Below are positions 47,935 to 62,032 of a DNA stretch of 64,000 nt, one piece after another. Position 1 is the first letter of the stretch, and the number at the start of each line of letters is the position of its first letter. This DNA is from Mesorhizobium shangrilense. GTDB lineage: Bacteria > Pseudomonadota > Alphaproteobacteria > Rhizobiales > Rhizobiaceae. The position numbers and the translations under genes were made by a program. The stretch lies in contig NZ_JBEWSZ010000001.1 of NCBI RefSeq assembly GCF_040537815.1, positions 3,844,001 through 3,908,000 of the forward strand, given 5' to 3'. The notes under the pieces were generated by a model, which worked only from the letters and a program-made list of their open reading frames with translations, searched no databases and was not told the DNA's origin.

Positions 47935-48633
47935 TTGAAAATACTGGCGCTCGGTGCGCATCCGGATGACATCGAGATCTTCATGTTCGGTACGATGGCG
48001 GCCTATGCGGCGCAAGGCGCAGAACTCACTTTTGCCGTGGCCACGGATGGGGCCAGGGGCGGCAAGAGCGACCCCACGGTTCTCGCCCGCTTCCGTCGCG
48101 AGGAAGCGACCGCTGCCGCTGCGCTGCTTGGCGCGACCCCGCGCTTCCTTGACTTTCCCGATGGCGAGCTGATGGCCGATGCCGCGCTGATCGGCGCGCT
48201 GAAAACGCTGATACGCGAGACCGGACCGGATCTGGTGATCACGCATGCACCCAACGACTATCACGCCGATCACCGCGCGCTGTCGGACGGCGTGCGGATC
48301 GCGGCCTCGTTCGGTGTTCCGGTTGTCCACGCCGACACGATGGGCGGCACCGGGTTTTCGCCAACACATTATGTCGATATTTCCGCTTATGGCGACATCA
48401 AGGCGAAGGCGATCCGGATGCATCGGTCGCAGGGGCCAGAGCAATATGTCGACAGGGCGCGCATCCAGAACGAGTTTCGCGCCGGTCAATGCAACGGCGT
48501 CTCCGGTTCACTGGCCGAGGCCTTTCGCTTTGAGCCCAGATTCCCCTTCGCCGACATACGCGCCTTGTTGCCGCCCGCGCCTCCGCTCCGGCCGGTGATG
48601 CCAAACCCGAACATCGTCATCCCGGTCGGCTGA
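47935..48633 (+). CDS. PIG-L/LmbE family deacetylase
   Basis: A 232-aa zinc-dependent N-deacetylase of the GlcNAc-PI de-N-acetylase family. Zn ligands are in AHPDDIE (about 8-14) and HAPNDYHADHRAL (about 102-114). The likely start is TTG at 47935 (LKILALGAHPDD), with GGGAGAGAG at 47922-47930; nothing upstream in frame is conserved. Such enzymes deacetylate amino-sugars, bacillithiol or mycothiol precursors, or antibiotic intermediates. The substrate here is unknown. Confidence 0.82.
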   Translation: MKILALGAHPDDIEIFMFGTMAAYAAQGAELTFAVATDGARGGKSDPTVLARFRREEATAAAALLGATPRFLDFPDGELMADAALIGALKTLIRETGPDLVITHAPNDYHADHRALSDGVRIAASFGVPVVHADTMGGTGFSPTHYVDISAYGDIKAKAIRMHRSQGPEQYVDRARIQNEFRAGQCNGVSGSLAEAFRFEPRFPFADIRALLPPAPPLRPVMPNPNIVIPVG

Positions 48634-48727
48634 CAGGTTGCCGGAAGAACCGCCCGGCGGTCATTTCCCAACGATTTCAATCACCCGGTTTCGTCATGCT
48701 GCGACGCAGCAACGAATTCGCTTGCGT

Positions 48728-48767
48728 TGTTTAGTAAAAATTGCATCACTAAACAAATTACTAAACA
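48728..48767. promoter_or_regulatory. three TTACTAAACA half-sites upstream of the ABC/dha operon
   Basis: TGTTTAGTAA (48728-48737) is a perfect inverse of TTACTAAACA (48758-48767), and a third copy TCACTAAACA (48746-48755) lies between, nine of ten bases alike. The sites are about 100 bases before the binding-protein gene in an AT-rich block, where a promoter would sit. This is the layout of a repressor or activator operator for a sugar operon. The regulator gene itself is not in the window. Confidence 0.6.
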
Positions 48768-48868
48768 TCCGCCGCGCTGCCGCGCCGCCATGTTTAGGCC
48801 CCTGAGGAGAGGGGTTGAGGGTTCTTGAAACTCGTCATCCGGGCGTGTTTCGCAAATGGGAGGAAGGC

Positions 48869-50197
48869 ATGAAATCGAGCTTGAAACTGGCGTTGGGACT
48901 GGCCTCGGCGATATCAGCGTCGACCGCCGTCTCGAGTGTCGCGCACGCTGAAGACCTGACGCTGTGCTGGGCCGCCTGGGACCCCGCCAACGCGCTTGTC
49001 GAACTGTCCAAGGACTTCACCAAGCAGACCGGCATCGGCATGAAATTCGAGTTCGTGCCGTGGACCAACTACGCCGACCGCTTCCTCAACGAACTGAACT
49101 CGCACGGCAAGCTGTGCGACCTGATCATCGGCGACAGCCAGTGGATCGGCGGCGCCGCCGAGAACGGCCACTACGTCAAGCTGAACGACTTCTTCGACAA
49201 GGAGAAGATCAGCATGGACGACTTCGTGCCGGCGACGGTCCTTGGCTATTCGGAGTGGCCGAAGAACACGCCGAACTACTGGGCATTGCCGGCGATGGCC
49301 GACGCGGTCGGCTGGACCTATCGCAAGGACTGGTTCTCGCGCCCCGAGTTGCAGACCGAGTTCAAGGCGAAATACGGACGCGATCTGGCGCCGCCCAAGA
49401 CCTATGATGAGCTCAAGGACATTGCCAAGTTCTTCCAGGGCCGCGATATCGACGGCAAGAAGGTCTACGGCGCCTACATTTTCACCGAGCGGGGCTCTGA
49501 AGGCATCACCATGGGCGTGACAAACGTCCTCTACGACTACGGCTTTCAATACGAGAATCCGAAGAAGCCGTACGACATGAAGGGCTTCGTCAATTCGGCG
49601 GGCGCGGTGAAGGGCCTCGAGTTCTACAAGGATCTCTACAAGTGCTGCACCGCGCCGGGCATGACCGACGCCTACATGTCGGAGGGGCTTGACGCCTTCA
49701 AGTCAGGTCAGGTGGCCATGCAGATGAACTGGTTCGCGTTCTTCCCCGGTCTGTACAAGGACCCGAACGTCGGTGGCGACAAGATCGGGTTCTTCCCCAA
49801 CCCTGCCGGGCCGGACGCTCACTTCACGCAACTTGGCGGCCAAGGCATCTCGGTGGTCTCATACTCGGACCACAAGGACGCCGCGCTGAAGTACATCAAG
49901 TGGTTCGCCCAGCCGGCTGTTCAGCAGAAGTGGTGGGAGATCGGTGGCTACTCGGCGCTGAAGGCAGTGGTGGAAGCCCCGTCGTTCCCGAAAAGCGCGC
50001 CCTTCGCCCCTGACTTCCTCGCATCGATGCAGATGGTGAAAGACTTCTGGGCTGAGCCAAGCTACGCCACACTGCTGCAGGCGATGCAGAAGCGCGTCCA
50101 CGACTACGTCGTGGCCGACCAGGGCACCGCCAAGGAAGCGCTCGACAGCCTGGTCAAGGACTGGACATCGACCTTCCAGGACGACGGCAAGATGTAA
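48869..50197 (+). CDS. ABC transporter sugar/polyol-binding protein
   Basis: A 442-aa periplasmic binding protein of the family-1 (MalE-like) type. A Sec signal covers about 1-27 (SAISASTAVSSVAHA then EDL). The mature part has the typical WDPANALVELSKDF and LCDLIIGDSQWIGGAAENG segments. It captures the substrate for the two permeases that follow. The ATG at 48869 has GGGAGGA at 48858-48864. It opens an operon that also encodes dihydroxyacetone-kinase modules, so the substrate is probably a short polyol or ketose; this is inference from context. Confidence 0.9.
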   Translation: MKSSLKLALGLASAISASTAVSSVAHAEDLTLCWAAWDPANALVELSKDFTKQTGIGMKFEFVPWTNYADRFLNELNSHGKLCDLIIGDSQWIGGAAENGHYVKLNDFFDKEKISMDDFVPATVLGYSEWPKNTPNYWALPAMADAVGWTYRKDWFSRPELQTEFKAKYGRDLAPPKTYDELKDIAKFFQGRDIDGKKVYGAYIFTERGSEGITMGVTNVLYDYGFQYENPKKPYDMKGFVNSAGAVKGLEFYKDLYKCCTAPGMTDAYMSEGLDAFKSGQVAMQMNWFAFFPGLYKDPNVGGDKIGFFPNPAGPDAHFTQLGGQGISVVSYSDHKDAALKYIKWFAQPAVQQKWWEIGGYSALKAVVEAPSFPKSAPFAPDFLASMQMVKDFWAEPSYATLLQAMQKRVHDYVVADQGTAKEALDSLVKDWTSTFQDDGKM

Positions 50198-50304
50198 GGC
50201 TCCTCCCGAGCCATGGCCGAGTGTCCCGTGCCGCCCTTGGCACGGGACACAGTTCAGATAAAATCCATCATCGAGACGAGCACGTGACCGAAGCAGGAAT
50301 GACC

Positions 50305-51252
50305 ATGCTCAATCGGACCGCGGACAGCGTTGCCCGGGCGACCCCGGAACCGTTGGCGCGCAAAGTCCGTGGCATCAGCGACAAGGGCCTGGCGTGGCTG
50401 TTCATCTCGCCGACGATCCTTCTGCTGCTCGCCATCAACATCTTCCCGCTGTTCTGGGCGATCTATCTGTCGTTCACCAATTACCGCGCCAACCGGTCGA
50501 ACGAGGTTGTCAAGAACCTCGGCTTTGCCAACTACCAGCGCATCCTCGGCGACCAGGATGTCTGGATCGCCATGCAGACGACGGCGCATTTCGTCTTCTG
50601 GACCATCCTGCTGCAGACGGTGATCGGCTTCACGCTGGCCTGGCTGATCGACCGCAAGTTCCGCGGCCACGCCTTCTGGACCACCATCATCCTGGTGCCG
50701 ATGATGCTGTCGCCCGCCGTGGTCGGCAATTTCTGGCGCTTCCTCTACCAACCTCAGACCGGGCTCTTCAATTACATCGTCGCCTTTTTCACGGGCGTGC
50801 CGCCTTCCTCCTTCGAGATGCTGGGCAGCGTGCAGCTCGCGCCGTGGGCCATCGTCATCGTCGACACCTGGATGTGGACGCCCTACGTGATGCTGATCTG
50901 CCTCGCCGGCCTGCGTTCGATCCCCGAATACATCTATGAAGCGGCCGAGGTCGACCGCGCCTCCAACTGGCGGCAGTTCTGGTCGATCACGCTGCCGATG
51001 GCGCTGCCCTTCATCATGCTGGCGGTGCTGTTTCGCGGCATCGAGAACTTCAAGATGTTCGACATGGTCAACCTGCTCACCGGTGGCGGGCCGGGCTCGA
51101 CCACCGAGGTCGCCTCGATCACGCTGAAGCGGCAGGCCTTCGAGAGCTGGCGCACCGGCTATTCCTCGGCCTTCGCCATCATACTCTTCGTCGCGGTGTT
51201 TGGTTTGGCCAACATCTACGTCAAGGCGCTCAACAAGGTGAAGCAGAGATGA
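50305..51252 (+). CDS. ABC transporter permease (MalF type)
   Basis: A 315-aa integral membrane permease with six helices and the EAA cytoplasmic loop EAAEVDRASNWRQFWSITLP near 215-235, which docks on the ATPases. I chose the ATG at 50305 because AGGA lies six bases upstream; an ATG at 50299 or a GTG at 50284 would extend it slightly. The stop overlaps the next permease start by four bases (ATGA). It forms the heteromeric channel with that protein. Confidence 0.9.
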   Translation: MLNRTADSVARATPEPLARKVRGISDKGLAWLFISPTILLLLAINIFPLFWAIYLSFTNYRANRSNEVVKNLGFANYQRILGDQDVWIAMQTTAHFVFWTILLQTVIGFTLAWLIDRKFRGHAFWTTIILVPMMLSPAVVGNFWRFLYQPQTGLFNYIVAFFTGVPPSSFEMLGSVQLAPWAIVIVDTWMWTPYVMLICLAGLRSIPEYIYEAAEVDRASNWRQFWSITLPMALPFIMLAVLFRGIENFKMFDMVNLLTGGGPGSTTEVASITLKRQAFESWRTGYSSAFAIILFVAVFGLANIYVKALNKVKQR

Positions 51253-52199
51253 GCCTGACATCAGCCCATTCCGTCGTCGCCCCCAGCGCCAACTCGAAGC
51301 GGATCGCGGGTGCGATCATCATCGCCTATGCGCTGATCTCGATCGTGCCGCTGCTGTGGATCTTCGCCACCAGCTTCAAGACGCCGCCGGATTCGATCGC
51401 CTATCCGCCCAAGATCGTCTTCCAGCCGAGCATCGAGGGCTACTGCAACCTGTTCACGACGCGGACCCGGCAGACGCCGGAGTACATCAATTCGCTAGGC
51501 CCGGCGACGGGCATCTGCGACGAGACCGCGCGCGAGCGCAACATGGTCATCGCCGGCCCGTCCAACTTCCTGCCGCGCTTCGTCAACTCGCTGATCATCG
51601 CCTTCGGCTCAACCTTCTGCGCGGTGTTCCTCGGCACGCTATCGGCCTATGGTTTCTCGCGCTTCAAGGTGCCGCTGGCGGACGACCTTCTGTTCTTCAT
51701 CCTGTCGACGCGCATGATGCCGCCGATCGCCGTCGCCATCCCGATCTACCTGATGTACCGCGAGCTTGGCCTGTCCGACACCGCGCTCGGCATGATCCTG
51801 CTCTACACCGCCGTCAACGTCTCGCTCGCTGTCTGGTTGCTGAAAGGCTTCATCGACGAGATCCCGCGCGAATATGAGGAGGCGGCGATGATCGATGGCT
51901 ATACGCGGCTGCAGGCGTTCTGGCGCACGGTGCTGCCGCAGGCAACCACAGGCATTGCCGCGACCGCCATCTTCTGCCTGATCTTTGCCTGGAACGAATA
52001 TGCGTTCGCCTCGCTGCTCACGTCCGGCACGGCACAGACCGCGCCGCCGTTCATCCCGACCATCATCGGCGAAGGCGGCCAGGACTGGCCGGCGGTTGCG
52101 GCGGGCACGACGATCTTCCTGGTTCCGATCCTTGTCTTCACCATCCTGCTTCGCAAGCAATTGCTGCGCGGCATCACCTTCGGCGCGGTGCGCAAATGA
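51249..52199 (+). CDS. ABC transporter permease (MalG type)
   Basis: A 316-aa permease with six helices and the EAA loop EEAAMIDGYTRLQAFWRTVL near 214-233. A long first periplasmic loop (about 45-100) contains two Cys (GYCNLF and TGICDE) that could pair. It is translationally coupled at both ends: the start overlaps the first permease and the stop overlaps the 68-aa membrane protein by four bases. It completes the membrane channel of the importer. Confidence 0.9.
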   Translation: MSLTSAHSVVAPSANSKRIAGAIIIAYALISIVPLLWIFATSFKTPPDSIAYPPKIVFQPSIEGYCNLFTTRTRQTPEYINSLGPATGICDETARERNMVIAGPSNFLPRFVNSLIIAFGSTFCAVFLGTLSAYGFSRFKVPLADDLLFFILSTRMMPPIAVAIPIYLMYRELGLSDTALGMILLYTAVNVSLAVWLLKGFIDEIPREYEEAAMIDGYTRLQAFWRTVLPQATTGIAATAIFCLIFAWNEYAFASLLTSGTAQTAPPFIPTIIGEGGQDWPAVAAGTTIFLVPILVFTILLRKQLLRGITFGAVRK

Positions 52200-52402
52200 G
52201 CATGACCAAGCCCGTAAAACGCAAAACGCGCTGGCCGGTCTGGGCCAGGCGCGGCCTGATGGAAAACATCGCGACGGCGCTGATCGCCATCGGTTTCCTG
52301 ATGCTGTTCCAGCCCTTCGCGCTGTCCCTCTACACCTATTCCTTCATCACCATGCTCGCCGGCACCGTGATGTTCATCATCGTCTCGAAGTTCCCGGAAT
52401 AA
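52196..52402 (+). CDS. 68-aa two-helix membrane protein in the ABC operon
   Basis: A 68-aa protein with a basic N-terminus (KPVKRKTRWPVWARR) and two hydrophobic segments (about 27-42 and 46-63). Overlapping ATGA with the permease and two bases before the ATPase, it is translated with the transporter. A small protein in the same kind of position accompanies the rhizobial glycerol transporter genes, as far as I recall. It may be an accessory subunit of the permease complex. No domain is recognised. Confidence 0.75.
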   Translation: MSMTKPVKRKTRWPVWARRGLMENIATALIAIGFLMLFQPFALSLYTYSFITMLAGTVMFIIVSKFPE

Positions 52403-52404
52403 TC

Positions 52405-53517
52405 ATGGCCGAAATCCGCGTCCAACATTTGAGAAAGGCCTTCGGCGATTTCGTCGCCGTGCAGGATTCCAACTTCGTTGTCGAGGATGGCGAGTTCTTC
52501 GTCATGCTGGGACCATCAGGCTGCGGCAAGACGACGACGCTGCGCATGATCGCCGGGCTCGAGTTGCCGACCGGCGGCCAGATCCTGCTCGGCGGCGACG
52601 ACGTCACCATGCTGCGGGCACGCGAGCGCGACATCGCCTTCGTCTTCCAGCTGTTCGCGCTCTACCCTCACATGAATGTGCGCAAGAACATCGGCTTCCC
52701 GCTGCTGGCGCAAGGCATGCCATCAGCCGAAATCCGCACCAGGGTCGAGGAGACGGCGAAGCTGTTGCGCATCGACCATCTGCTCGACAAATCCGTCTCC
52801 GGTCTCGCCGGCGGCGATCGCCAGCGCGTTGCGCTCGGCCGCGCCATCGTGCGGCGGCCAAAATGCTTCCTGATGGACGAGCCGCTGGGAACCCTTGATA
52901 CTGAATTCCGCGATTTGATGGTCCATGAGTTGCGCGAGTTGCACAACCGCATCCACGCCACGACCGTCTATGTCACGCATGACCAGATGGAAGCGATGTC
53001 AATGGCCGACAAGATCGCCGTCATGAACCACGGCGTCATCGAACAGTTCGGAAGCCCACGCGAAATCTACGACCGCCCAGCGACCATGTTCGTCGCCGAC
53101 TTCATCGGTTCGCCGCCAATGAATTTCCTGGGGTTCGGCGGCGGGCTCGCCAAAGGCGCGAAGGAGATCGTCGTGCAGGGCGCGACAGTGGCCGTGCCCG
53201 AGGTGCGCGAGGACATCGCGCCCAGCGACATGGCACTCGGCATCCGCCCGGAACACATCCGCTTCGACGATGCCTCCAAACTACGCGGCGCTATCTACGG
53301 CACCGAATATCTCGGCACCACGCAGATCGTCGCGGTGGAAACGGCGGATGGCATCATCAAGGCGCGCGTGCCGGCCGAAATCCGGCTCAATACCGGCGAT
53401 CATGTCGGCCTGACACTGAACAGCGCGCGGCTGTCGCTGTTCGACAAGGGGTCCGGCCGCGCGGTGAGGACCGCTGTCCACGACACCGCCTCGGAGCGGA
53501 GGGCGCAGCATGGCTGA
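52405..53517 (+). CDS. ABC transporter ATPase, first of two (UgpC/MalK type)
   Basis: A 370-aa ATPase with Walker A GPSGCGKTT (36-44), Q-loop FVFQLFALYPH, Walker B FLMDEPLGTLD and H-loop THDQ. Its signature motif is LAGGDRQ near 134, an unusual form of LSGGQ. A C-terminal regulatory OB domain (TOBE) follows from about 240. It starts at ATG 52405 just after the small membrane gene and overlaps the second ATPase by 8 bases. The atypical signature suggests that it pairs with the second ATPase rather than with itself. Confidence 0.92.
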   Translation: MAEIRVQHLRKAFGDFVAVQDSNFVVEDGEFFVMLGPSGCGKTTTLRMIAGLELPTGGQILLGGDDVTMLRARERDIAFVFQLFALYPHMNVRKNIGFPLLAQGMPSAEIRTRVEETAKLLRIDHLLDKSVSGLAGGDRQRVALGRAIVRRPKCFLMDEPLGTLDTEFRDLMVHELRELHNRIHATTVYVTHDQMEAMSMADKIAVMNHGVIEQFGSPREIYDRPATMFVADFIGSPPMNFLGFGGGLAKGAKEIVVQGATVAVPEVREDIAPSDMALGIRPEHIRFDDASKLRGAIYGTEYLGTTQIVAVETADGIIKARVPAEIRLNTGDHVGLTLNSARLSLFDKGSGRAVRTAVHDTASERRAQHG

Positions 53518-54523
53518 CGTGCACATCAAGAACGTGACCAAGAGTTTCGGCGACCATGTCGCCGTCGATGGTCTCGACCTGCATATCGCCGATGGCGAAT
53601 TCGTCGTGCTGCTCGGGCCGACCGGGGCCGGCAAGACGACAACGCTGCGGCTGATCGCCGGGCTGGAACGGCCGGATGCCGGCACGATCGCAATCGGCGG
53701 TCATGACGCCACGACGCTATCGCCGGCCGAGCGCGACACCGCTTTCGTCTTCCAGCAATATTCGCTCTATCCGCATCTGTCGGTGTTCGACAATCTCGCC
53801 TTTCCGCTGCGCTCGCCGGCACGAAGAATTCCGGAGGACCAGATCCGCCGCCGGGTCGAGGAAGTGGCTGGCATGGTGCGCATCCATCACAAGCTCGCCA
53901 ACCGCTCGACAAAGCTGTCGGGCGGCGAAATGCAGCGCGTCGCCATCGGCCGCGCGCTGGTGCGCAAACCAGCCATCTACCTGATGGATGAGCCGCTGTC
54001 GTCGCTCGATGCAAAACTACGCGCGGACCTGCGGCTCGAATTGAAACGCATCCAGTCCGAACTCGGCGCCACCATGCTCTATGTCACCCACGACCAGATC
54101 GAGGCGATGACGATGGCCGACCGCATCGGCATTCTCGCCGACGGCGTGCTGGTGCAGATCGGCTCGCCGCGAACCATCTATTCCGAGCCGGCAAACCTGC
54201 ATGTCGCTGCAAGGCTCGGCCAGCCCGCGATCAATCTTCTGCCCACCGGGCTGCTGCCCGATGCCGACGCGCCGACAGGAACCAAGACGATCGGTGCGCG
54301 CACCGAGCACCTGGCGATCGAGAAGGCCACGAATGGCCATGCCGACGGCGTCGTCGACTGGGTCGAGCATCTCGGCGACCAGAACCACCTGCATGTGACG
54401 GTGGGGCCGAAGAAGCTGGTGACGCTGACCGATCCGGACACCGATCTGGCGCAAGGCGACAAGGTGATGATCCGCTACCGCTCGCCGCTCTATTTCGGCG
54501 CCGACGGACAAAGACTGATGTGA
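53510..54523 (+). CDS. ABC transporter ATPase, second of two (UgpC/MalK type)
   Basis: A 337-aa ATPase with Walker A GPTGAGKTT (36-44), canonical signature LSGGEMQR near 139, Walker B YLMDEPLSSLD and H-loop THDQ, then a shorter TOBE domain. With the preceding ATPase it probably forms a heterodimer, as in the two-ATPase rhizobial glycerol transporter GlpST. A 13-base direct repeat CTGATGTGAACGG (54515-54527 and 54530-54542) spans its stop codon. An 87-base gap separates it from the DhaKL gene. Confidence 0.92.
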   Translation: MADVHIKNVTKSFGDHVAVDGLDLHIADGEFVVLLGPTGAGKTTTLRLIAGLERPDAGTIAIGGHDATTLSPAERDTAFVFQQYSLYPHLSVFDNLAFPLRSPARRIPEDQIRRRVEEVAGMVRIHHKLANRSTKLSGGEMQRVAIGRALVRKPAIYLMDEPLSSLDAKLRADLRLELKRIQSELGATMLYVTHDQIEAMTMADRIGILADGVLVQIGSPRTIYSEPANLHVAARLGQPAINLLPTGLLPDADAPTGTKTIGARTEHLAIEKATNGHADGVVDWVEHLGDQNHLHVTVGPKKLVTLTDPDTDLAQGDKVMIRYRSPLYFGADGQRLM

Positions 54524-54610
54524 ACGGGGCTGATGTGAACGGTTTTCGGTGTTTCCCCTGGGGTTCAGCACCGGCCTCTGATTGACGATTGCGAATACGG
54601 GACAAATTCG

Positions 54611-56254
54611 ATGAAGCACTTTTTCAACCGCCGGGAAACGATCGTCACCGAGGCGCTGGACGGCCTGTTGCGGACCATCGGCGCTGGCGATCTCGCGCGC
54701 CTCGACGGCTACCCCGAGATCAAGGTCATCCTGCGCGCCGATTGGGACAAGGCAAGGGTCAGCGTCGTCTCCGGTGGTGGGGCCGGGCATGAGCCTTCGC
54801 ATGCCGGCTTCGTCGGCAAGGGTATGCTGACGGCGGCTGTCTCTGGCGAGATCTTTGCCTCGCCGAGCGTCGAAGCGGTGCTGGCGGCCATCCGCGCAGT
54901 CACCGGCCCTGCCGGCTGCCTGCTGATCGTCAAGAACTACACCGGTGACCGCCTCAATTTCGGCCTGGCCGCCGAGAAGGCGCGCGCCGAAGGCTTTCGT
55001 GTCGAGATGGTGATCGTCGCCGACGACATCGCGCTCCCCGACATTGCCCAGCCACGCGGCGTTGCCGGCACGCTGTTCGTGCACAAGATCGCAGGGCATC
55101 TGTCGGAAGCTGGCCACGATCTGGCGGATATCGCGGCTGCGGCACGAGCGGCGGCGAAGGACATTGTTTCGCTCGGCATGTCGCTGTCGTCCTGCTCTAT
55201 CCCCGGCCAGCCGCACGAGGACAGGTTTGGTGCTGATGATGGCGAGCTCGGCCTCGGTATCCACGGCGAGCCCGGCGTCGAACGCATTGCCGTGCAAAGC
55301 GCCGACCGGCTGGTCGCGATCATGGCGGAGCGCCTTGCAGCGCGGCTCGATCCGAAGGCTACCCATGCCTTGCTGATCAACAACCTCGGCGCGGTGCCGC
55401 CGCTCGAAATGTCTCTTGTAGCCAACGCCGTGCTTGCCTCGCCGCTCGCCAAAACCATCAAGCTGACGATCGGCCCTGGACCGCTGATGACGGCGCTCAA
55501 CATGAACGGCTTCTCGCTGTCGCTGATCCGGCTGGATGCGGCGCGCGAGGCTGCCTTGCTGGAGCCGGTCGGCCCGCACGCATGGATGCCGGCAAAGCCT
55601 GTCGTTGCGCCGGCTGTGGTGCCACTGGCCAAAAACGCCGGCGAAAGCACGGCACGCAAGCCCAGCCAGGACGCACGCACCAGACGCCTCATCACCACCG
55701 TCTGCGAAAGGCTGATTTCACTCGAAGCGGCATTGAACGGACTGGACGCCAAGGCCGGCGACGGCGACACCGGCTCGACGGTGGCGACCGGTGCGCGCAG
55801 CGTGCTGGAGCGCCTTGATACGCTGCCGCTGGCGGACTCTGCTGCTACCCTTGGCGCTCTGGGCAATATTCTGAGCGCCTCCATGGGCGGCTCCAGCGGG
55901 GTGCTGCTGTCGATCTTCTTCACGGCGGCGGCGCAGGCCCTGGATGCCGGCGCCGGCCTGGCCAAGGCGCTGCTTGCGGGGCTTGAGCGGATGACTTTCT
56001 ACGGTGGCGCCGCAACTGGGGATCGCACCATGGTCGATGCCCTGGAGCCCGCCCTGAGAGCGCTCGACGCTCATGGCCTGGAGGACGCGGCGGCAGCGGC
56101 CCGACGCGGCGCCGAGGCCACGGCGGCCATGGACAAGGCCAAGGCCGGACGGTCCGCCTATGTCGGCAGCAAGCTGCAGGGGGTGGTCGACCCCGGGGCT
56201 CATGCGGTGGCCGAGGTCTTCGCGGCCGTCGCCGCGCTGCATGCCGCGGCCTGA
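54611..56254 (+). CDS. dihydroxyacetone kinase family DhaK-DhaL fusion (ATP type)
   Basis: A 547-aa fusion. The K domain (about 1-330) binds the ketose covalently through His218 in GIHGEPG. The L domain (about 350-547) has the Mg/ATP motif KAGDGDTGSTVATGA near 378-392, the GDT form usual in ATP-dependent enzymes. It would phosphorylate dihydroxyacetone or a related ketose or tetrulose with ATP. A second, PEP-dependent set of K and L subunits follows in the same operon, so two kinases for related substrates are encoded side by side. Confidence 0.92.
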   Translation: MKHFFNRRETIVTEALDGLLRTIGAGDLARLDGYPEIKVILRADWDKARVSVVSGGGAGHEPSHAGFVGKGMLTAAVSGEIFASPSVEAVLAAIRAVTGPAGCLLIVKNYTGDRLNFGLAAEKARAEGFRVEMVIVADDIALPDIAQPRGVAGTLFVHKIAGHLSEAGHDLADIAAAARAAAKDIVSLGMSLSSCSIPGQPHEDRFGADDGELGLGIHGEPGVERIAVQSADRLVAIMAERLAARLDPKATHALLINNLGAVPPLEMSLVANAVLASPLAKTIKLTIGPGPLMTALNMNGFSLSLIRLDAAREAALLEPVGPHAWMPAKPVVAPAVVPLAKNAGESTARKPSQDARTRRLITTVCERLISLEAALNGLDAKAGDGDTGSTVATGARSVLERLDTLPLADSAATLGALGNILSASMGGSSGVLLSIFFTAAAQALDAGAGLAKALLAGLERMTFYGGAATGDRTMVDALEPALRALDAHGLEDAAAAARRGAEATAAMDKAKAGRSAYVGSKLQGVVDPGAHAVAEVFAAVAALHAAA

Positions 56255-56326
56255 CGCATGCTTGAGTTGTCGAATGACAGTTCTTTCGCTACTGCCGGCA
56301 GGATGGAAACCGGGAATTCGGGTGAC

Positions 56327-56929
56327 ATGGCGGCGTTGAACCTTTCCAGGCTGATCGCGGCCGCCGCGGATGCGATTGCTGATAACGCCGAGGCGTTGAC
56401 GGCGCTCGACCAGGCGATCGGCGACGGCGACCACGGGCTCAACATGAAGCGCGGGTTCGAGGTGGTGCGCGGCGAGGCCGAGGCTTTTTCGGCCAAACCG
56501 CTGCCCGACGCATTGAAGGCGATCGGCACCAAGCTGGTGATGACGGTCGGCGGTGCCTCCGGCCCGCTGTTCGGTACCTTGTTCATGGCGCTCGGCAAGG
56601 AGATTTCGGCGGATCCCGATCGCACCAACCTGACGACGGCTTTTGGCAAGGCGATCGACGCGGTGGCCGCGCGGGGCAAGTCGCAAGCTGGACAGAAAAC
56701 CATGCTGGATGTGCTGCAGCCAGTGCATGAGGCGTTGTTGCAAGGAAAGACCGCAGCGGAGATTGCGGATGTCGCCGACAGGGCTGCCGAGGCAACCATA
56801 CCAATGAAGGCCCTGCGCGGCCGCGCCTCGTTCCTTGGCGACCGTTCGATCGGCCACATGGATGCCGGCGCGCGCTCGACCGCGCTGCTGGTGCGCGCCG
56901 TTGTCGAAACCATCGGGGAACGTGCATGA
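56327..56929 (+). CDS. dhaL: dihydroxyacetone kinase subunit DhaL (PTS type)
   Basis: A 200-aa DhaL subunit. The ADP/Mg motif is ALDQAIGDGDHGLNM (26-40), the GDHG form found in PTS-linked enzymes, where bound ADP is rephosphorylated by DhaM. The lipid-sealed helix barrel ends with a conserved DAGARSTALL. The ATG at 56327 (MAALNLSRL) fits family starts; in-frame ATGs at 56258 and 56303 would add 8-23 residues. The stop overlaps dhaM by four bases. Confidence 0.9.
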   Translation: MAALNLSRLIAAAADAIADNAEALTALDQAIGDGDHGLNMKRGFEVVRGEAEAFSAKPLPDALKAIGTKLVMTVGGASGPLFGTLFMALGKEISADPDRTNLTTAFGKAIDAVAARGKSQAGQKTMLDVLQPVHEALLQGKTAAEIADVADRAAEATIPMKALRGRASFLGDRSIGHMDAGARSTALLVRAVVETIGERA

Positions 56930-57315
56930 GCAATGTCGGGATCGTAATCGTGTCGCATTCCCCGCTGGTCGCGGAAGGCACGGCCGACATGGTACGCCAG
57001 ATGGTGGGCGACGAAGTGCCGCTTGCGTGGTGCGGCGGAAACGGCCATGGCGGGCTGGGCACCAGCGTCGAAGCCATCATGGCGGCCATCGAGAAGGCGT
57101 GGTCGGAGGCGGGTGTCGCGGTTCTCGTCGATCTCGGCGGCGCCGAGACCAACAGCGAGATGGCGGTGGAAATGATCGGCGAGCCGCGTGCGCAGAAGAT
57201 CATCGTCTGCAACGCGCCGATCGTCGAAGGCGCGGTGATGGCGGCGACCGAGGCTTCTGGCGGCGCCTCGCTCAAGGAAGTGGTGGCGACGGCGCATGAA
57301 CTGTCGCCGTCGTGA
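56926..57315 (+). CDS. dhaM: DhaM-type PTS EIIA (mannose family)
   Basis: A 129-aa single-domain EIIA of the mannose/DhaM type. The phosphorylated His is His11 in VSHSPLVAEG; the rest follows the family (LVDLGGAETNSEMA, CNAPIVEGAVMAA). It passes phosphate from HPr to DhaL-bound ADP. In E. coli this domain is fused to HPr and a truncated enzyme I in one DhaM chain; here those two follow as separate genes in the same order. Confidence 0.9.
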   Translation: MSNVGIVIVSHSPLVAEGTADMVRQMVGDEVPLAWCGGNGHGGLGTSVEAIMAAIEKAWSEAGVAVLVDLGGAETNSEMAVEMIGEPRAQKIIVCNAPIVEGAVMAATEASGGASLKEVVATAHELSPS

Positions 57316-57336
57316 GTGAACGGGAATTCTGAAGAC

Positions 57337-57639
57337 ATGTCCGCAGCCGCCGAAGCCATCGTCCTGATCACCCACGAGGTTGGGCTGCATGCGCGTCCTT
57401 CGGTGAAGTTCACCAAGCTTGCCAAGAGCTTTGCCGCCGAGGTTGAGATAGCGCTTGCCGCCAACGGCCCATGGTTCGACGCCAAGAGCATCGTCAAGGT
57501 GATGGCCACCAAGGCGCCGAAGGGCACGCTGTTGCACATCAGGGCCAGAGGCGACGGCGCCAAGGATGCCGTTGGGGCGCTGGTCGAACTGGTGCGACGG
57601 GATTTCGACGAAGGCGCGGACCATGCCCGAACCGCTTAG
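57337..57639 (+). CDS. HPr family phosphocarrier protein
   Basis: A 100-aa HPr. The phospho-acceptor is His18 in GLHARPS, and a Ser in the place of regulatory Ser46 is present (Ser51 in DAKSIVKVM). It carries phosphate from enzyme I to DhaM. The ATG at 57337 is preferred to an in-frame GTG at 57316. The last 17 bases overlap the start of the enzyme I gene, showing tight coupling. Confidence 0.92.
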   Translation: MSAAAEAIVLITHEVGLHARPSVKFTKLAKSFAAEVEIALAANGPWFDAKSIVKVMATKAPKGTLLHIRARGDGAKDAVGALVELVRRDFDEGADHARTA

Positions 57640-59239
57640 GCTCCAGGGCATTTCGGCCTCGGCCGGCTATGCCGAGGGGCCGTTGTTCAACCTCGACGGG
57701 ATCGCATCGCCCTATGCCGGCAAGGCAACCGCCGCTGACGAGAAAGCAGCGCTCGAAACCGCGATCGGCATTGCAACGGCTCGTCTCACTGCCTTGATCG
57801 AAACGGCCGACAGCGACGCGGCCGGCATTCTCGAATTCCAGGTCGCCATGCTGGAGGACGACGCATTGAGCAGCCCGGCCTTTGCCGCGATCGCGGCCGG
57901 CCAGCCGGCCGATGCCGCATGGCGACAGGCGCTCGACGCCGAAATCGGCGGATACGAGAGTTCGGAGCAGCATTACTTCCGGGCGCGCGCCGCCGACATC
58001 CGCGATATCAGGGACCAGGTGCTGCGCGCCTTGACCGCGGACGGCGATATCCAGGCGCCAGCGGGCGCCATCTTCTATGGCGAGGACATCGCGCCGACGC
58101 GTTTTCTCGAAACCGACTGGAGCGGCGGCGGTGGCATCGCTCTGAAGGCCGGCAGCACGGCAAGCCATGTCGCCATGCTGGCGCGCTCGCGTGGCGTGCC
58201 AATGGTGGTTGGGCTTGGGGTGGTCGGGCCTGGGGTGGTTGGGCTTGGCCACTCGTCGGCCAATCCTGCCGGCACAGCGCTGCTCGACGCCGAACATGGC
58301 GGCATCGTGCTTTCTCCCTCCAGGACCGAGATCGATGCCTTTCGCCAATCGTCTCTGTCCTTCGCGGCGCGGCGCGACCGGGCCGGGACGTTCCTGGCGC
58401 GGCCGGCGCTGACGAAAGCCGGCACGGCGGTGCGCGTTCAGGTCAACATCGCCGATCCGTCCGATGTCGACGGCATCGACATTGCGACCTGCGACGGTGT
58501 CGGCCTGATGCGCACCGAATTCCTGTTCGGCAAGACATTGCCGGACGAGGAGACGCAGTATCGCTGTTATCGCAAGGTGCTGGAATGGGCCGGCGAGAAG
58601 CCGGTGACGATCCGCACCGTTGACGCCGGCGGCGACAAGCCGGTGCCCGGTTTCACCGTGGAAGAAAGCAATCCGTTCCTCGGCCTTCGCGGTATCAGGC
58701 TGTCGCTGGCGCGGCCGGAGGTGTTTCGTGTACAAATCCGGGCACTGCTGCGCGCCGCCATCCACGGCAGTCTGAAAGTGATGTTCCCGATGATCGCTGT
58801 TGTGGAGGAATACAGGCAGGCGGCGGTGATGTTCGCCGAGGAGCGGGCCGCGCTCGATGTTCGCGGCATCCCACACAAGATGCCGCCGCTCGGCATCATG
58901 GTCGAGGTGCCTTCGGTGGCGATCATGCCGGAGGCTTTTACCGAAGCAGCCTTCTTTTCGATCGGCTCCAATGACCTCGCCCAATATGTGATGGCGGCGG
59001 CGCGCGACAATGCCACTGTCGCGCATCTCAATTCTGTTCGTCATCCGGCGGTGCTGCGGCTGATCGGCTCGGTCATGGCCTTCGGACGGGAACGCGGGAT
59101 TCCGGTCAGCCTGTGCGGCGATGCCGGTGGCGATCCAGCCTCGATCCCCTCGCTGCTCGAAGCAGGTCTGCGTGATCTGTCCGTCGCGCCGGCTCAACTC
59201 GCCATGGCCAAGGCGGCCATCGCGGACGTTTCGATCTAG
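57623..59239 (+). CDS. PTS enzyme I (PEP-protein phosphotransferase), full length
   Basis: A 538-aa enzyme I. It has the N-terminal HPr-binding and swivel domain with His182 (TASHVAML), and the C-terminal PEP-binding barrel with GLMRTEFLF, Asn/Asp-rich GSNDLAQYVM and the active-site Cys498 in LCGDAGGD. No GAF domain is present, so it is not the nitrogen-type EI-Ntr. It can take phosphate directly from PEP and feed HPr. A 15-base unit is repeated three times (58205-58249), giving VVGLG-VVGPG-VVGLG just after the swivel His region. Confidence 0.93.
   Translation: MPEPLRLQGISASAGYAEGPLFNLDGIASPYAGKATAADEKAALETAIGIATARLTALIETADSDAAGILEFQVAMLEDDALSSPAFAAIAAGQPADAAWRQALDAEIGGYESSEQHYFRARAADIRDIRDQVLRALTADGDIQAPAGAIFYGEDIAPTRFLETDWSGGGGIALKAGSTASHVAMLARSRGVPMVVGLGVVGPGVVGLGHSSANPAGTALLDAEHGGIVLSPSRTEIDAFRQSSLSFAARRDRAGTFLARPALTKAGTAVRVQVNIADPSDVDGIDIATCDGVGLMRTEFLFGKTLPDEETQYRCYRKVLEWAGEKPVTIRTVDAGGDKPVPGFTVEESNPFLGLRGIRLSLARPEVFRVQIRALLRAAIHGSLKVMFPMIAVVEEYRQAAVMFAEERAALDVRGIPHKMPPLGIMVEVPSVAIMPEAFTEAAFFSIGSNDLAQYVMAAARDNATVAHLNSVRHPAVLRLIGSVMAFGRERGIPVSLCGDAGGDPASIPSLLEAGLRDLSVAPAQLAMAKAAIADVSI
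58205..58249 (+). repeat. 15-bp x3 in-frame tandem repeat in enzyme I
   Basis: Three 15-base units (58205-58219, 58220-58234, 58235-58249) of the form GTGGTTGGGCTTGGG encode VVGLG, VVGPG and VVGLG. Family members normally have one copy here, in the strand after His182. The reading frame is kept, so the protein gains ten residues in the phosphohistidine domain. Copies differ at one to three bases. Confidence 0.85.
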
Positions 59240-59241
59240 GC

Positions 59242-59676
59242 ATGGCTGGCATGGTCGACAAGACGCCTGAACCTGGTTCCGAAGAGGCGATCCGCGCCTA
59301 CAAGACGATCCTGTCGCACGTCATCGACCAGCGCCCGTCCGGCATGCGCCAGCGCCTCGCCGACGCGCTGGGCAAACACCGCAGTTTCGTCACGCAGATT
59401 TCGAGCCCCGCCTATTCGATCCCGATTCCGTCAAAACATTTGCCGGCTATTTTTTCAGTCTGCCATTTCAGCCCGGCCGAGCGCGACCAGTTTCTCGCCG
59501 CCTACCACCAGGCGCATCCCGGCAAGATCTCGGTGGCCGCCGGCATGCGCAAGACGCGGCATGTATCACTGATCGTTCCCGATTTCGGCGACGACAAGCA
59601 GAACGCCGCGCTCGACAAAGCGGTGAATGACTTCATCCAGAAGATTACCAGCATCACCGGCAAGGGTGGCAGCTGA
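59242..59676 (+). CDS. small putative HTH protein in the dha operon
   Basis: A 144-aa protein with no family I can name. Residues about 33-75 look like an Xre-like helix-turn-helix (MRQRLADALGKHRSFVTQIS then IPSKHLPAIFSVC), followed by SPAERDQFLAAYHQAHPGK. The C-terminal half (RHVSLIVPDFGDDKQNAALDKAVNDF) is a separate short domain. It starts two bases after the enzyme I stop and 32 bases before dhaK, so it is part of the kinase operon and may regulate it or link it to the phosphorelay. Confidence 0.7.
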   Translation: MAGMVDKTPEPGSEEAIRAYKTILSHVIDQRPSGMRQRLADALGKHRSFVTQISSPAYSIPIPSKHLPAIFSVCHFSPAERDQFLAAYHQAHPGKISVAAGMRKTRHVSLIVPDFGDDKQNAALDKAVNDFIQKITSITGKGGS

Positions 59677-59708
59677 ATATTTCTTGCCGGGTTGTTTGGG
59701 AGGACACC

Positions 59709-60695
59709 ATGAAGAAATTTATGAATTCGGTGGACACGGTGCTGACCGAGAGCCTCGACGGTTTCGTTGCCGCCCATGCCGACATCCTTGTGCTTGGTGA
59801 CGAGCACAAATTCATCCGCCGCAAGAGCTTGCGGTCGGGCAAGGTGGCGCTGATCTCCGGCGGCGGCTCCGGCCACGAGCCGCTGCATGGCGGTTTCGTC
59901 GGCCACGGCATGCTGGATGCCGCCTGCCCCGGCCAGGTGTTCACCTCGCCGACGCCCGACCAGATGCTGGCGGCGGCGGCGGCCGTCAATACCGGCGCCG
60001 GCTGCCTGTTCATCGTCAAGAACTATGAGGGCGACGTCATGAATTTCGACATGGCCGCCGAAATGTCGGAAGGCGTGTTGCAGGTGGTGATCAATGACGA
60101 TGTCGCCGTCGAGAATTCATCCTTTACGACCGGCCGGCGCGGCGTCGCCGGCACGCTGGTGGTGGAAAAAATCGTCGGCGCCGCGGCCGAGCATGGCCTG
60201 GCGCTGGCACCGCTGAAAGCGCTGGGCGACCGCGTCAATGCGGCCACCCGTTCGATGGGTGTGGCGCTGACCAGCGGCACCGTGCCGGCGGCGGGCAAGC
60301 CGACTTTCGACATCGGCGAAGGCGAGATGGAGTTCGGCGTCGGCATCCATGGCGAACCCGGTCGCCGACGCGACACGTTGAAAAGCGCCGATGCGATTGC
60401 CGAGGAAATCTGCGCCGCGATCATCGGCGATCTGGGCGACAAGGCGAAAGGCCCGGCGCTGCTGTTCGTCAACGGTTTTGGCGGCACGCCGCTGATGGAG
60501 CTCTATCTGATGTACAACAGCGCCCGCCGAATTTTCGAGAAGCACGGCGTGACCATAACCCGCTCGCTAGTCGGCTCCTATGTGACCTCGCTCGACATGG
60601 CCGGATGCTCGATCACGTTGACCATCCTTGACGCAGAAACGACCAGCCTGTGGGACGCGCCAGTCCATGCCCCCGCGTTGCGCTGGGGCATGTAG
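59709..60695 (+). CDS. dhaK: dihydroxyacetone kinase subunit DhaK (PTS type)
   Basis: A 328-aa DhaK that binds the ketose covalently at His214 (GVGIHGEPG) and receives phosphate from DhaL-ATP. The N-terminal VDTVLTESLDGF and the glycine-rich SGGGSGHEPLHGG (about 54-66) are typical. Together with dhaL, dhaM, HPr and enzyme I it completes a PEP-driven dihydroxyacetone kinase. It is the last gene of the operon; the 164 bases after it hold nothing recognisable. Confidence 0.94.
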   Translation: MKKFMNSVDTVLTESLDGFVAAHADILVLGDEHKFIRRKSLRSGKVALISGGGSGHEPLHGGFVGHGMLDAACPGQVFTSPTPDQMLAAAAAVNTGAGCLFIVKNYEGDVMNFDMAAEMSEGVLQVVINDDVAVENSSFTTGRRGVAGTLVVEKIVGAAAEHGLALAPLKALGDRVNAATRSMGVALTSGTVPAAGKPTFDIGEGEMEFGVGIHGEPGRRRDTLKSADAIAEEICAAIIGDLGDKAKGPALLFVNGFGGTPLMELYLMYNSARRIFEKHGVTITRSLVGSYVTSLDMAGCSITLTILDAETTSLWDAPVHAPALRWGM

Positions 60696-60865
60696 CATCG
60701 AATATCATTGTCAAACGACGTGAGTTGGGAAGGCCTCGAAATGTCGGGCGCCAGGCTCAACGGTACTGCGGTCAGCCTGCCGGAAGGGACGTATTGGAGA
60801 CAGCTGTGACGCCGGACAATTTCCCTGCCTTGCGTAGCACCGGCGCTTGATAGGCTTTCTTGCTC

Positions 60866-62032
60866 ATGCCATTCCCTTTGCCCAATAACAATCAGTGCAA
60901 ATCAACATATACGTCGCCCACTCGCAAGAGCGGCTCTGGCTTCGGCTCCGCTTTTCTGCAACCCTCTTTCTGGAACACCCCACTCATTGACGAAACTGCC
61001 TGGACAATGCTGCCTCCTCTTTCGCCGACCAACAAAAAGCTGCTGCTGCGCTACGCCGATCCGGAAGCGTTGATCGTTGGCGACAGTACTGATTCGGCCG
61101 ACACCCTGTCGGCCTTGCTGGCCAATGCGGAGTTCCATGGCACCCTGCCCGTCATGCTGCGCAAACTCCGGGAGCGCGGTGACGAGAACTTGCCGAGGGA
61201 CGCGGCGTTGCAGGCGACGTTGCACGGCCTGCGCCAGAAGGCGACGATCATCACCGGCCAATCGATGCTGTTGCAGTACCACGGCGACCGGATCATGAAG
61301 GCGCTCGCCGCCAACGGCATTCCGGCGCGGATCGTCAAGGGACCGGTCTTTGCGCGAAAGCTCTATCGCAATGTCGCCGACAGGCCGTTTACCGACATCG
61401 ACATCCTCGTCGAACCGGCCCGTTTGGCCGACGCCAACCGGACCATCGCGGCATGCGGCTTCGAGCTTGGCGGTGACGAGGCCCAATCCTATGAGCTGCA
61501 GGAATTCAAATGGCTCGAAAAGGAGAATTCGAGCCTGCTGGTCGAATTGCATGGCGACCTCGTGCATGACACCGGCATGCGGCGGCGGCTGTCGCTGGGG
61601 TACCGTGAATTGCGTGCGATCGACGGCGAGGCAAGCGACACGCCAGCAGCGCTGCTGACGATCGCCATCGTCCACGCCGCCGGCGGGCACAAATTCCATC
61701 GGCTGCAGCTTTGCGTCGACGTGCTGCAAGGCGTGCGCGCGCTGCGGTCCCCGGACGCCGAAGCGCGTCTGCTCGATGCTGCCCGCATGACCGGCATCGA
61801 ACTCGAACTGGCGACCGTGCTCAACGTGACCGGCAGGCTGTTCGACGAAAGACGAGCGCTTGAACTCGCCAGCCGGATCAAGCCCGATCTCGGCATCCGC
61901 TTAGCCCAGCGGCTGATCACTGGGAATACGCTGCTGAACGTCAACTCCAGGGACAAGATGCGCTCGCGCCTGCGCCGCGACGCCTTCCGCTGGATCCAGA
62001 GGCTTGCCAAACCCAGGCCGCGCTTCGCCTGA
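60866..62032 (+). CDS. nucleotidyltransferase family protein (NTP_transf_5-like)
   Basis: A 388-aa protein with a nucleotidyltransferase core: IPARIVKGPVFARKLY then RPFTDIDILVEP, where the D-I-D pair binds metal, and a helical C-terminus with several His (VELHGDLVH, IVHAAGGHKFHR). This type (PF14907-like) is often found with lasso-peptide or PqqD-linked genes, which indeed lie convergent just downstream. The start is unsure: ATG 60866 gives a low-complexity N-terminus, ATG 61007 a tidier one. It would transfer a nucleotide to a peptide or sugar. Confidence 0.78.
   Translation: MPFPLPNNNQCKSTYTSPTRKSGSGFGSAFLQPSFWNTPLIDETAWTMLPPLSPTNKKLLLRYADPEALIVGDSTDSADTLSALLANAEFHGTLPVMLRKLRERGDENLPRDAALQATLHGLRQKATIITGQSMLLQYHGDRIMKALAANGIPARIVKGPVFARKLYRNVADRPFTDIDILVEPARLADANRTIAACGFELGGDEAQSYELQEFKWLEKENSSLLVELHGDLVHDTGMRRRLSLGYRELRAIDGEASDTPAALLTIAIVHAAGGHKFHRLQLCVDVLQGVRALRSPDAEARLLDAARMTGIELELATVLNVTGRLFDERRALELASRIKPDLGIRLAQRLITGNTLLNVNSRDKMRSRLRRDAFRWIQRLAKPRPRFA

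Follow-up and report, generated by a model that had tools for sequence, protein, structure and literature searches.

The dihydroxyacetone (DHA) kinase DhaKLM of Escherichia coli works through a relay that depends on phosphoenolpyruvate (PEP). Its DhaM, a single fused chain, has no complete enzyme I (EI), and its regulator is DhaR. A PEP-dependent relay is also encoded in the 64,000 nt stretch of Mesorhizobium shangrilense DNA analysed here (the window, 3844001-3908000 of contig C1; all coordinates are positions in it unless stated otherwise, and the host genome comprises 8.35 Mb in 49 contigs). DhaK and DhaL of the window match E. coli chains in the Protein Data Bank (PDB) with 319 and 131 bits, but EIIA (DhaM), HPr and a complete EI are encoded by separate genes. 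They stand in a run of 13 plus-strand genes (48869-60695) together with an ATP-binding cassette (ABC) importer, an ATP-type DhaK-DhaL fusion kinase and a protein of 144 aa that we call HTHu. The fusion resembles the solved kinase 1un9, the ATP-dependent DHA kinase of Citrobacter freundii, with which its residues 3-541 align nearly end to end (511 bits). It differs from 1un9 in lying within an ABC operon and below the curated glycerone kinase equivalog cut-offs (530.2 versus 574.95 bits for dak_ATP, and 447.9 versus 492 bits). The Lsr (autoinducer-2) system likewise has an ABC importer that feeds a cytoplasmic kinase, and a link to the phosphotransferase system (PTS), but its kinase and regulator are unrelated to those of the window and its operon is not known to hold a complete PTS relay. 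We suggest that the 13 genes form a ketose catabolic operon, in which two kinases act on one substrate and HTHu binds ACTAAAC repeats as the operon's own regulator, a reading that we hold to be likely as a whole, with room for doubt. The gene content, the catalytic residues, the conserved order, the swapping of kinase modules and the co-occurrence of HTHu with the operator are read directly from the sequences.

Part of this arrangement is already in print, namely an operon of HPr, EI and DHA kinase genes (2008) and a co-expressed 12-gene version from Bradyrhizobium (2016). Comas et al. reported that a second EI gene of M. loti shares its operon with genes for HPr and DHA kinase and that B. japonicum has an identical cluster; these clusters did not group with fused IIA-Man proteins (PMC2405797). 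As in the window, HPr and EI are separate genes alongside the DHA kinase genes; the passages on these clusters mention no ABC importer, HTH protein or operator, and the word ABC is absent from the main text (PMC2405797). In B. diazoefficiens, blr3566-blr3577 encode a solute-binding protein (SBP), two permeases, a hypothetical protein, two ATPases, a DhaL-like protein, EIIA, HPr, EI, the hypothetical protein blr3576 and DhaK, which are the same 12 genes in the same order as in the window. All 12 were increased 4.2- to 24.3-fold in a blr7984 mutant, and in bacteroids of the wild type they stood at 0.17-0.60 of the level of free-living cells (PMC5017801). This cluster lacks the DhaK-DhaL fusion, and in the parts of that paper that deal with it blr3576, in the position of HTHu, is called hypothetical and neither an operator nor a substrate is proposed. 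The co-expression in a relative without the fusion agrees with the view of an earlier note on this DNA that the ABC and dha genes are one co-regulated unit. No other paper naming blr3572, blr3575, blr3576 or blr3577 was found in an open-licence library, and the listings returned by searches of that library showed no study of an ABC importer for dihydroxyacetone in bacteria (phrase searches) and no publication on an HTHu-ACTAAAC pair. The new elements seem to be the swapping of modules behind a single importer and the pairing predicted for HTHu and ACTAAAC.

In order to compare the kinases found behind this importer, 113 loci were typed with profiles built on the window's sequences and those of at most six relatives. 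A PEP-type kinase alone was present in 45 loci, an ATP-type fusion alone in 37, and both in 21; one further locus (L254) had both but no HTHu, four had DhaK and DhaL only, and five were cut by contig ends. A DHA kinase stands behind the importer in 108 of the 113 loci, and the other five end at contig edges. The contigs of L187 and L230, both typed as ATP loci, end inside the fusion, so that 35 ATP-only loci are left without them; for L187 the remainder of a dual operon lies at the end of another contig of the same genome. As the same importer is paired with the ATP-type kinase alone (37), the PEP-type kinase alone (45) or both (22), the two kinases behave as substitutes. They most likely share one substrate and represent interchangeable modules, and the importer most likely carries the substrate of whichever DHA kinase it is paired with. 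The importer recurs among sampled genomes: SBP orthologues are present in 22 of 385 from the class (E up to 1e-100) and in 92 of 397 from the order (E up to 1e-180). Since the split operon was also published in 2008 (PMC2405797), the word unusual, which had been applied to an ABC-fed, self-contained PTS relay, was too strong.

HTHu (predicted XRE-type regulator, 59242-59676) had been listed earlier as a putative HTH protein and put to no further use, but is the most informative part of the locus. It has no Pfam match. Its AlphaFold model has a mean pLDDT of 80.8, and XRE/lambda-cI chains dominate the lists of similar folds; searches of PDB sequences gave weak matches only, to a designed DNA-binding protein (E 0.067) and an XRE-like protein (E 0.11). 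Relatives of HTHu were found at 459 loci, and 77 of the best 80 are from Mesorhizobium. Genome-wide, HTHu occurs in exactly 10 of 21 SBP-bearing genomes, namely those with the PTS arm, as a single-copy gene. All 66 complete PTS-type or dual ABC loci typed contain it, and L254 is the sole ABC-bearing PTS locus among those typed without it. Model, fold lists and distribution are suggestive of HTHu being the operon's own XRE-type regulator.

The predicted operator (48729-48766) lies in front of the SBP gene and consists of GTTTAGT (48729-48735) and two copies of ACTAAAC (48748-48754 and 48760-48766). When the 400 bp before the SBP gene were searched on either strand, ACTAAAC was present in 65 of 66 loci with HTHu and in 2 of 41 without it, the latter better read as 1 of 40 since L187 is mis-typed as ATP; this count sets aside the five contig-cut loci (one with at least two sites) and L254 (one site). 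The reversed control heptamer was found in 12 of the 66 and 4 of the 41 loci. For 56 HTHu loci, leaving out ten near-identical loci of the window's genus, we counted 128 exact heptamers in 22,400 bp of upstream sequence versus 3 in 823,999 bp elsewhere, while mono-shuffled upstream sequences gave a mean of 1.7. An open count of 8-mers ranked ACTAAACA at the top upstream of PEP-only loci (35 of 45, versus 1 of 37 ATP loci), and GTACCTCA and CGTACCTC at the top in ATP loci (26 of 37, versus 0 of 45 PEP-only loci). Among 24 inverted pairs found, 20 had the spacing GTTTAGT-N12-ACTAAAC, often with a third copy 5-6 bp further on. A search of the window's own genome for ACTAAAC-N5-ACTAAAC, with up to one mismatch allowed, gave this site alone (one match; three for the reversed control).

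A prediction was fixed before 15 plasmid loci were scanned, which had been chosen to cover a broad range out of 40 records listed among 165; five of these loci had been retrieved already, and the gene tables and annotated features of two were known. The site was present in all seven loci with HTHu and in none of the eight without it, and all eight of the latter have a LacI gene. The palindrome predicted for ATP-only loci was found in six of six. The held-out loci of Paraburkholderia phymatum and Caballeronia zhejiangensis have DhaL and DhaK only and lack the site; their nearest importers are of PTS type (L164, L165). Two loci with HTHu and without ABC genes also carry the heptamer: in L291 the only exact copy in 19 kb is located 167 bp before the first gene, and in L312 two of three copies lie within 240 bp before the first gene.

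Several points weigh against the proposed reading. The tree needs only about five changes of HTHu, and HTHu and site are shared by descent; due to these few evolutionary changes the Fisher test of HTHu versus operator (p 1e-25) is not independent evidence. In an independent-pair test, on a tree that leaves out seven near-identical loci of the window's genus and L187, three pairs lay on supported branches, of which 2.9 agreed on average (median p 0.25); another test of this kind also fell short of significance. In L193, which has HTHu, all sites carry one mismatch, while L250 and L254 have an exact site without HTHu; their PTS arm is decayed or lacks HTHu, and they also have the ATP-type palindrome. 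None of the chains in the fold lists of HTHu matched at a Foldseek E of 0.001, a LacI gene is located upstream in four PTS loci, and the window has no TTGACA before the heptamer, so that repression is guessed from a few relatives. With regard to the substrate, the importer is similar to systems of the MalF/UgpA type, whose usual substrates are larger sugars or glycerol phosphate, so a triose would be atypical. The literature examined held no published substrate, DNA-binding or phosphotransfer data on these proteins.

One alternative is that ACTAAAC is bound by another regulator, either LacI or a protein encoded elsewhere, and that HTHu has another role, e.g., as a PTS accessory protein. The co-occurrence of HTHu and site is mostly inherited together, fold similarity is no demonstration of DNA binding, and both the four LacI-bearing PTS loci and the sites without HTHu in L250 and L254 fit this explanation. 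A LacI gene accompanies 32 of the 37 ATP loci and 4 of the 66 PTS or dual loci, but only 25 of these 66 have at least 1.5 kb of upstream sequence. However, beside the other 21 of these 25 no such LacI is found. Furthermore, HTHu is single-copy, its presence tracks the site whether or not a locus has ABC genes, and the tandem site is unique in its own genome. Other regulators were also looked for beside the operons, and only LacI recurs. Taken together, we regard binding by another regulator as rather unlikely. Control by the neighbouring gene was rejected: the ORF (open reading frame) preceding the operon, which ends at 48633, looks PIG-L deacetylase-like by eye, and LacI is present in only four PTS loci. 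If HTHu is the regulator, the TTGACA that immediately precedes the first heptamer of L169, L171, L210 and L312 hints at repression.

The second alternative concerns the kinases. The earlier note had suggested two related substrates or two steps; with two substrates, the fusion would phosphorylate a different ketose (e.g., erythrulose) from the PEP-type kinase, with both carried by the importer. The scores of the fusion below the curated cut-offs would be in line with such a division of labour, as would the persistence of dual operons in 22 loci and the catalytic residues, which are kept in both arms of dual loci. Against it stand the 82 loci with one arm only behind the same importer (45 PEP, 37 ATP, two of the latter cut inside the fusion), which place two substrates below redundancy, and the nearest solved relative of the fusion, which is the DHA kinase 1un9. 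The divergence of the dual loci is also as expected of redundancy. In ten dual loci outside the window's genus the mean identity of DhaK to PEP-only loci is 0.48-0.60, compared to 0.66-0.74 among the 45 PEP-only loci themselves, whereas the ABC genes are not diverged (0.71-0.74 versus 0.65-0.75 for PEP-only loci). Six of these ten loci fall in one clade of the DhaK tree, so the ten do not count as separate cases. In the window's genus (11 rows) the identity of DhaK is 0.71-0.72, like that of PEP-only loci. Two substrates appear quite unlikely to us. In most dual lineages, but not in the window's genus, the PEP arm seems to be under relaxed constraint owing to redundancy.

Trees, from which seven near-identical loci of the genus were left out, describe how the modules are distributed. 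In the ABC tree, 36 of the 37 ATP-typed loci form one clade with L254, the exception being the contig-cut L187, and the dual loci are scattered among PEP-only loci. In the unrooted fusion tree, a single branch divides all 14 fusions of dual loci from the ATP-only fusions; the placement of L171 with the dual fusions depends on the root, at a point where two long branches join, and for this reason independent gains of the fusion were not counted. For the window's genus, the PEP arm (DhaK and EI) groups with L208 and L258, whereas the importer genes fall with L198 and the dual loci L042, L188 and L191, which gives the operon the look of a mosaic.

We consider it least probable that the PEP arm of dual operons is mainly a sensor controlling the operon while the ATP fusion does the metabolic work: the diverged PEP arm in ten dual loci, the location of the HTHu gene between EI and DhaK, and the role of E. 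coli DhaK and DhaL as co-regulators of DhaR would suit it, but the catalytic residues are kept in dual loci and DhaK of the window's genus is as conserved as in PEP-only loci.

In the mechanism that we infer for the shared-substrate operon, from the substrate and the phosphotransfer to DNA binding, the direction of regulation and a signal from the relay to HTHu, the SBP and a heteromeric ABC transporter would import an unphosphorylated ketose at the cost of ATP. The substrate is probably dihydroxyacetone or a very similar short ketose, which the ATP-dependent DhaK-DhaL fusion would trap as phosphate. In the second route, phosphate would pass from PEP to EI, to His25 of HPr, to EIIA, to the nucleotide held by DhaL and finally to the ketose on His214 of DhaK. 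HTHu would bind the ACTAAAC repeats before the SBP gene, would more probably repress than activate the operon, and would be functionally tied to the PTS arm. At 10339-11225 of L291, an additional stand-alone EIIA, which scores like the split type, lies behind a fused EIIA-HPr-EI DhaM and ahead of HTHu, hinting that EIIA and HTHu work together. It is conceivable, if doubtful, that HTHu and a DhaM-type EIIA constitute an undescribed PTS-linked switch that reads the phosphorylation state of the EI-HPr-EIIA relay, with the ATP kinase as a bypass. Such a switch would sense PEP supply and ketose demand and set import and phosphorylation of DHA together; the stand-alone EIIA beside HTHu in L291, a locus that already has a fused DhaM, fits this idea. 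The proposed operon offers a testable assignment for an importer family that recurs across Alphaproteobacteria and for the hypothetical protein HTHu. Operons with an ATP-type kinase, a PEP-type kinase or both behind one importer in related bacteria are a natural experiment on paying with PEP versus ATP, and the predicted regulator-operator pair makes this question directly testable.

The integrity of both kinases was assessed by profiles and residues. DhaL, the PEP-type ADP-binding subunit (56258-56929; TIGR02365, 208.9 bits versus a cut-off of 138.3), and EIIA (DhaM) (56926-57315; TIGR02364, 141.3 versus 98.25 bits) score above curated NCBIfam models for PEP-dependent DHA kinase. HPr (57316-57639; TIGR01003, 62.2 versus 47.9 bits) keeps GLHARP with His25, and DhaL keeps three Asp. 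The complete EI of 538 aa (57623-59239; TIGR01417, 350.4 versus 341.7 bits) has the N-terminal, mobile and PEP-binding Pfam domains. Its swivel His182 and PEP-site Cys498, noted earlier at this numbering, were confirmed; all 7 EIs of one alignment and all 67 of a wider one have both residues, and likewise Arg297, Arg331, Glu428, Asn450 and Asp451; the roles of these residues are known from E. coli EI. The separate PEP-type DhaK (59709-60695), scanned against Pfam and PDB, matches Dak1 with 408 bits, has PTS-dependent DhaK chains as its nearest solved relatives, and keeps His56, Asp109 and His214 in alignment with E. coli DhaK. The tested catalytic residues of DhaK, DhaL, EIIA, HPr and EI are thus intact; in the 67-row check the His of EIIA was unreadable in three rows and that of HPr in one, as start trimming had cut the end. 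The fusion (547 aa, 54611-56254; Dak1 and Dak2) has the catalytic His and Asp and three Asp of the nucleotide site and, although it scores below the dak_ATP equivalog cut-off, may work like an ATP-dependent glycerone kinase.

Profile scores and residues bear out that a complete relay from PEP through EI, HPr, EIIA and DhaL to DhaK is encoded. The further claim that it can run without the general PTS holds in part: all relay proteins are encoded here, but the genome holds further PTS components and cross-talk is possible. An HPr-EI fusion is located at 4.77 Mb of contig C1, HPr and EIIA-man at 4.39 Mb of the same contig, and another EI, probably EINtr, on contig C5. Both Dak1 matches of the genome lie in the operon. 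Comas et al. tie the HPr-EI fusion of M. loti to a glucitol-class PTS (PMC2405797).

The window contains three separate genes in place of a fused EIIA-HPr-EI DhaM. The EI tree, in which split-type EIs form one clade, spoke neither for nor against descent by splitting of an E. coli-type DhaM; the approximately unbiased (AU) test did not reject split and fused types together (p 0.163). DhaM was found in 25 of 398 genomes sampled from the phylum, with 6 of 27 matches in frames of fused size (at least 483 aa), and fused forms are present in L264, L275 and L277.

The importer is of the carbohydrate type (MalEFGK/UgpABCE-like). It comprises the SBP of 442 aa (48869-50197; SBP_bac_1 and SBP_bac_8 above the Pfam cut-off), the two related permeases 1 (MalF/UgpA-like, 50302-51252, with the start codon chosen in a longer frame from 50221) and 2 (MalG/UgpE-like by profile match, 51249-52199), and the UgpC-like ATPases 1 (52405-53517) and 2 (53510-54523, profile match). 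A small membrane protein of 68 aa without Pfam family (52196-52402), which is kept across typed loci, is encoded between permease 2 and ATPase 1. The importer proteins reach no equivalog cut-off, so profiles give no substrate name, and the PDB sequence search did not name a ligand of the SBP. ATPase 1 has the degenerate signature LAGGD. This signature ends in Gly-Asp in all 111 ATPase 1 proteins read, and that of ATPase 2 is SGGE or SGGQ in the 62 read; the two ATPases are perhaps an asymmetric pair. The genome of the window also holds a paralogous ABC set (L185, G000:C2:5000-24500), with identities of 43% for the SBP, 45% and 54% for the permeases and 43% for the two ATPases; no DHA kinase match was found in the retrieved stretch.

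ORF calls together with domain and profile matches bear out the 13 genes in the order and on the strand given earlier, with few gaps. Most junctions overlap or are short (e.g., a 17 bp overlap of HPr and EI, and a 2 bp gap between EI and HTHu), and the largest inner gaps are 104 bp (SBP/permease 1) and 87 bp (ATPase 2/fusion). The same 13 genes in the same order were present in 10 of 10 regions retrieved from Mesorhizobium. The order of six ABC genes, the optional fusion, DhaL, EIIA, HPr, EI, HTHu and DhaK holds in the 66 typed HTHu-bearing loci, except that DhaK is inverted in L172 and the fusion is last in two. One typed row, most likely L045, lacks permease 2 as its stop-to-stop frame begins early; another analysis of L045 placed the gene normally. 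By its conserved order the arrangement is far from chance, and spacing and conserved order support the view of one operon. Scans of the window found no Rfam family above its cut-off and no tRNA. A consensus scan gave one promoter-like site (shuffle mean 1.7), which is not in front of the operon, and nine terminator-like sites were found (shuffle mean 8.7), so that these scans do not inform on the operon ends. The downstream neighbour (60860-62032) encodes an NTP_transf_5 protein (Pfam).

A palindrome, TGCTGCGACGCAGCA, is located at 48697-48711, upstream of the predicted operator, and similar palindromes precede the operons of several relatives. It resembles PhaR/AniA sites, and a second control through it is possible.

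Some loci deviate from the common types. In L227 and L228, from two species of the window's own genus, an ATP-only locus of LacI type replaces the 13-gene operon. In L181-L184, L315 and L318 the importer is followed by DhaL and DhaK only, and no EIIA, HPr, EI or fusion was found at the locus. In L296 a PTS arm that lacks HTHu and has its DhaK broken into two frames follows an ATP-type locus, and in L297 only remnants of DhaL and DhaK follow the ATP-type locus; the two form an apparent decay series.

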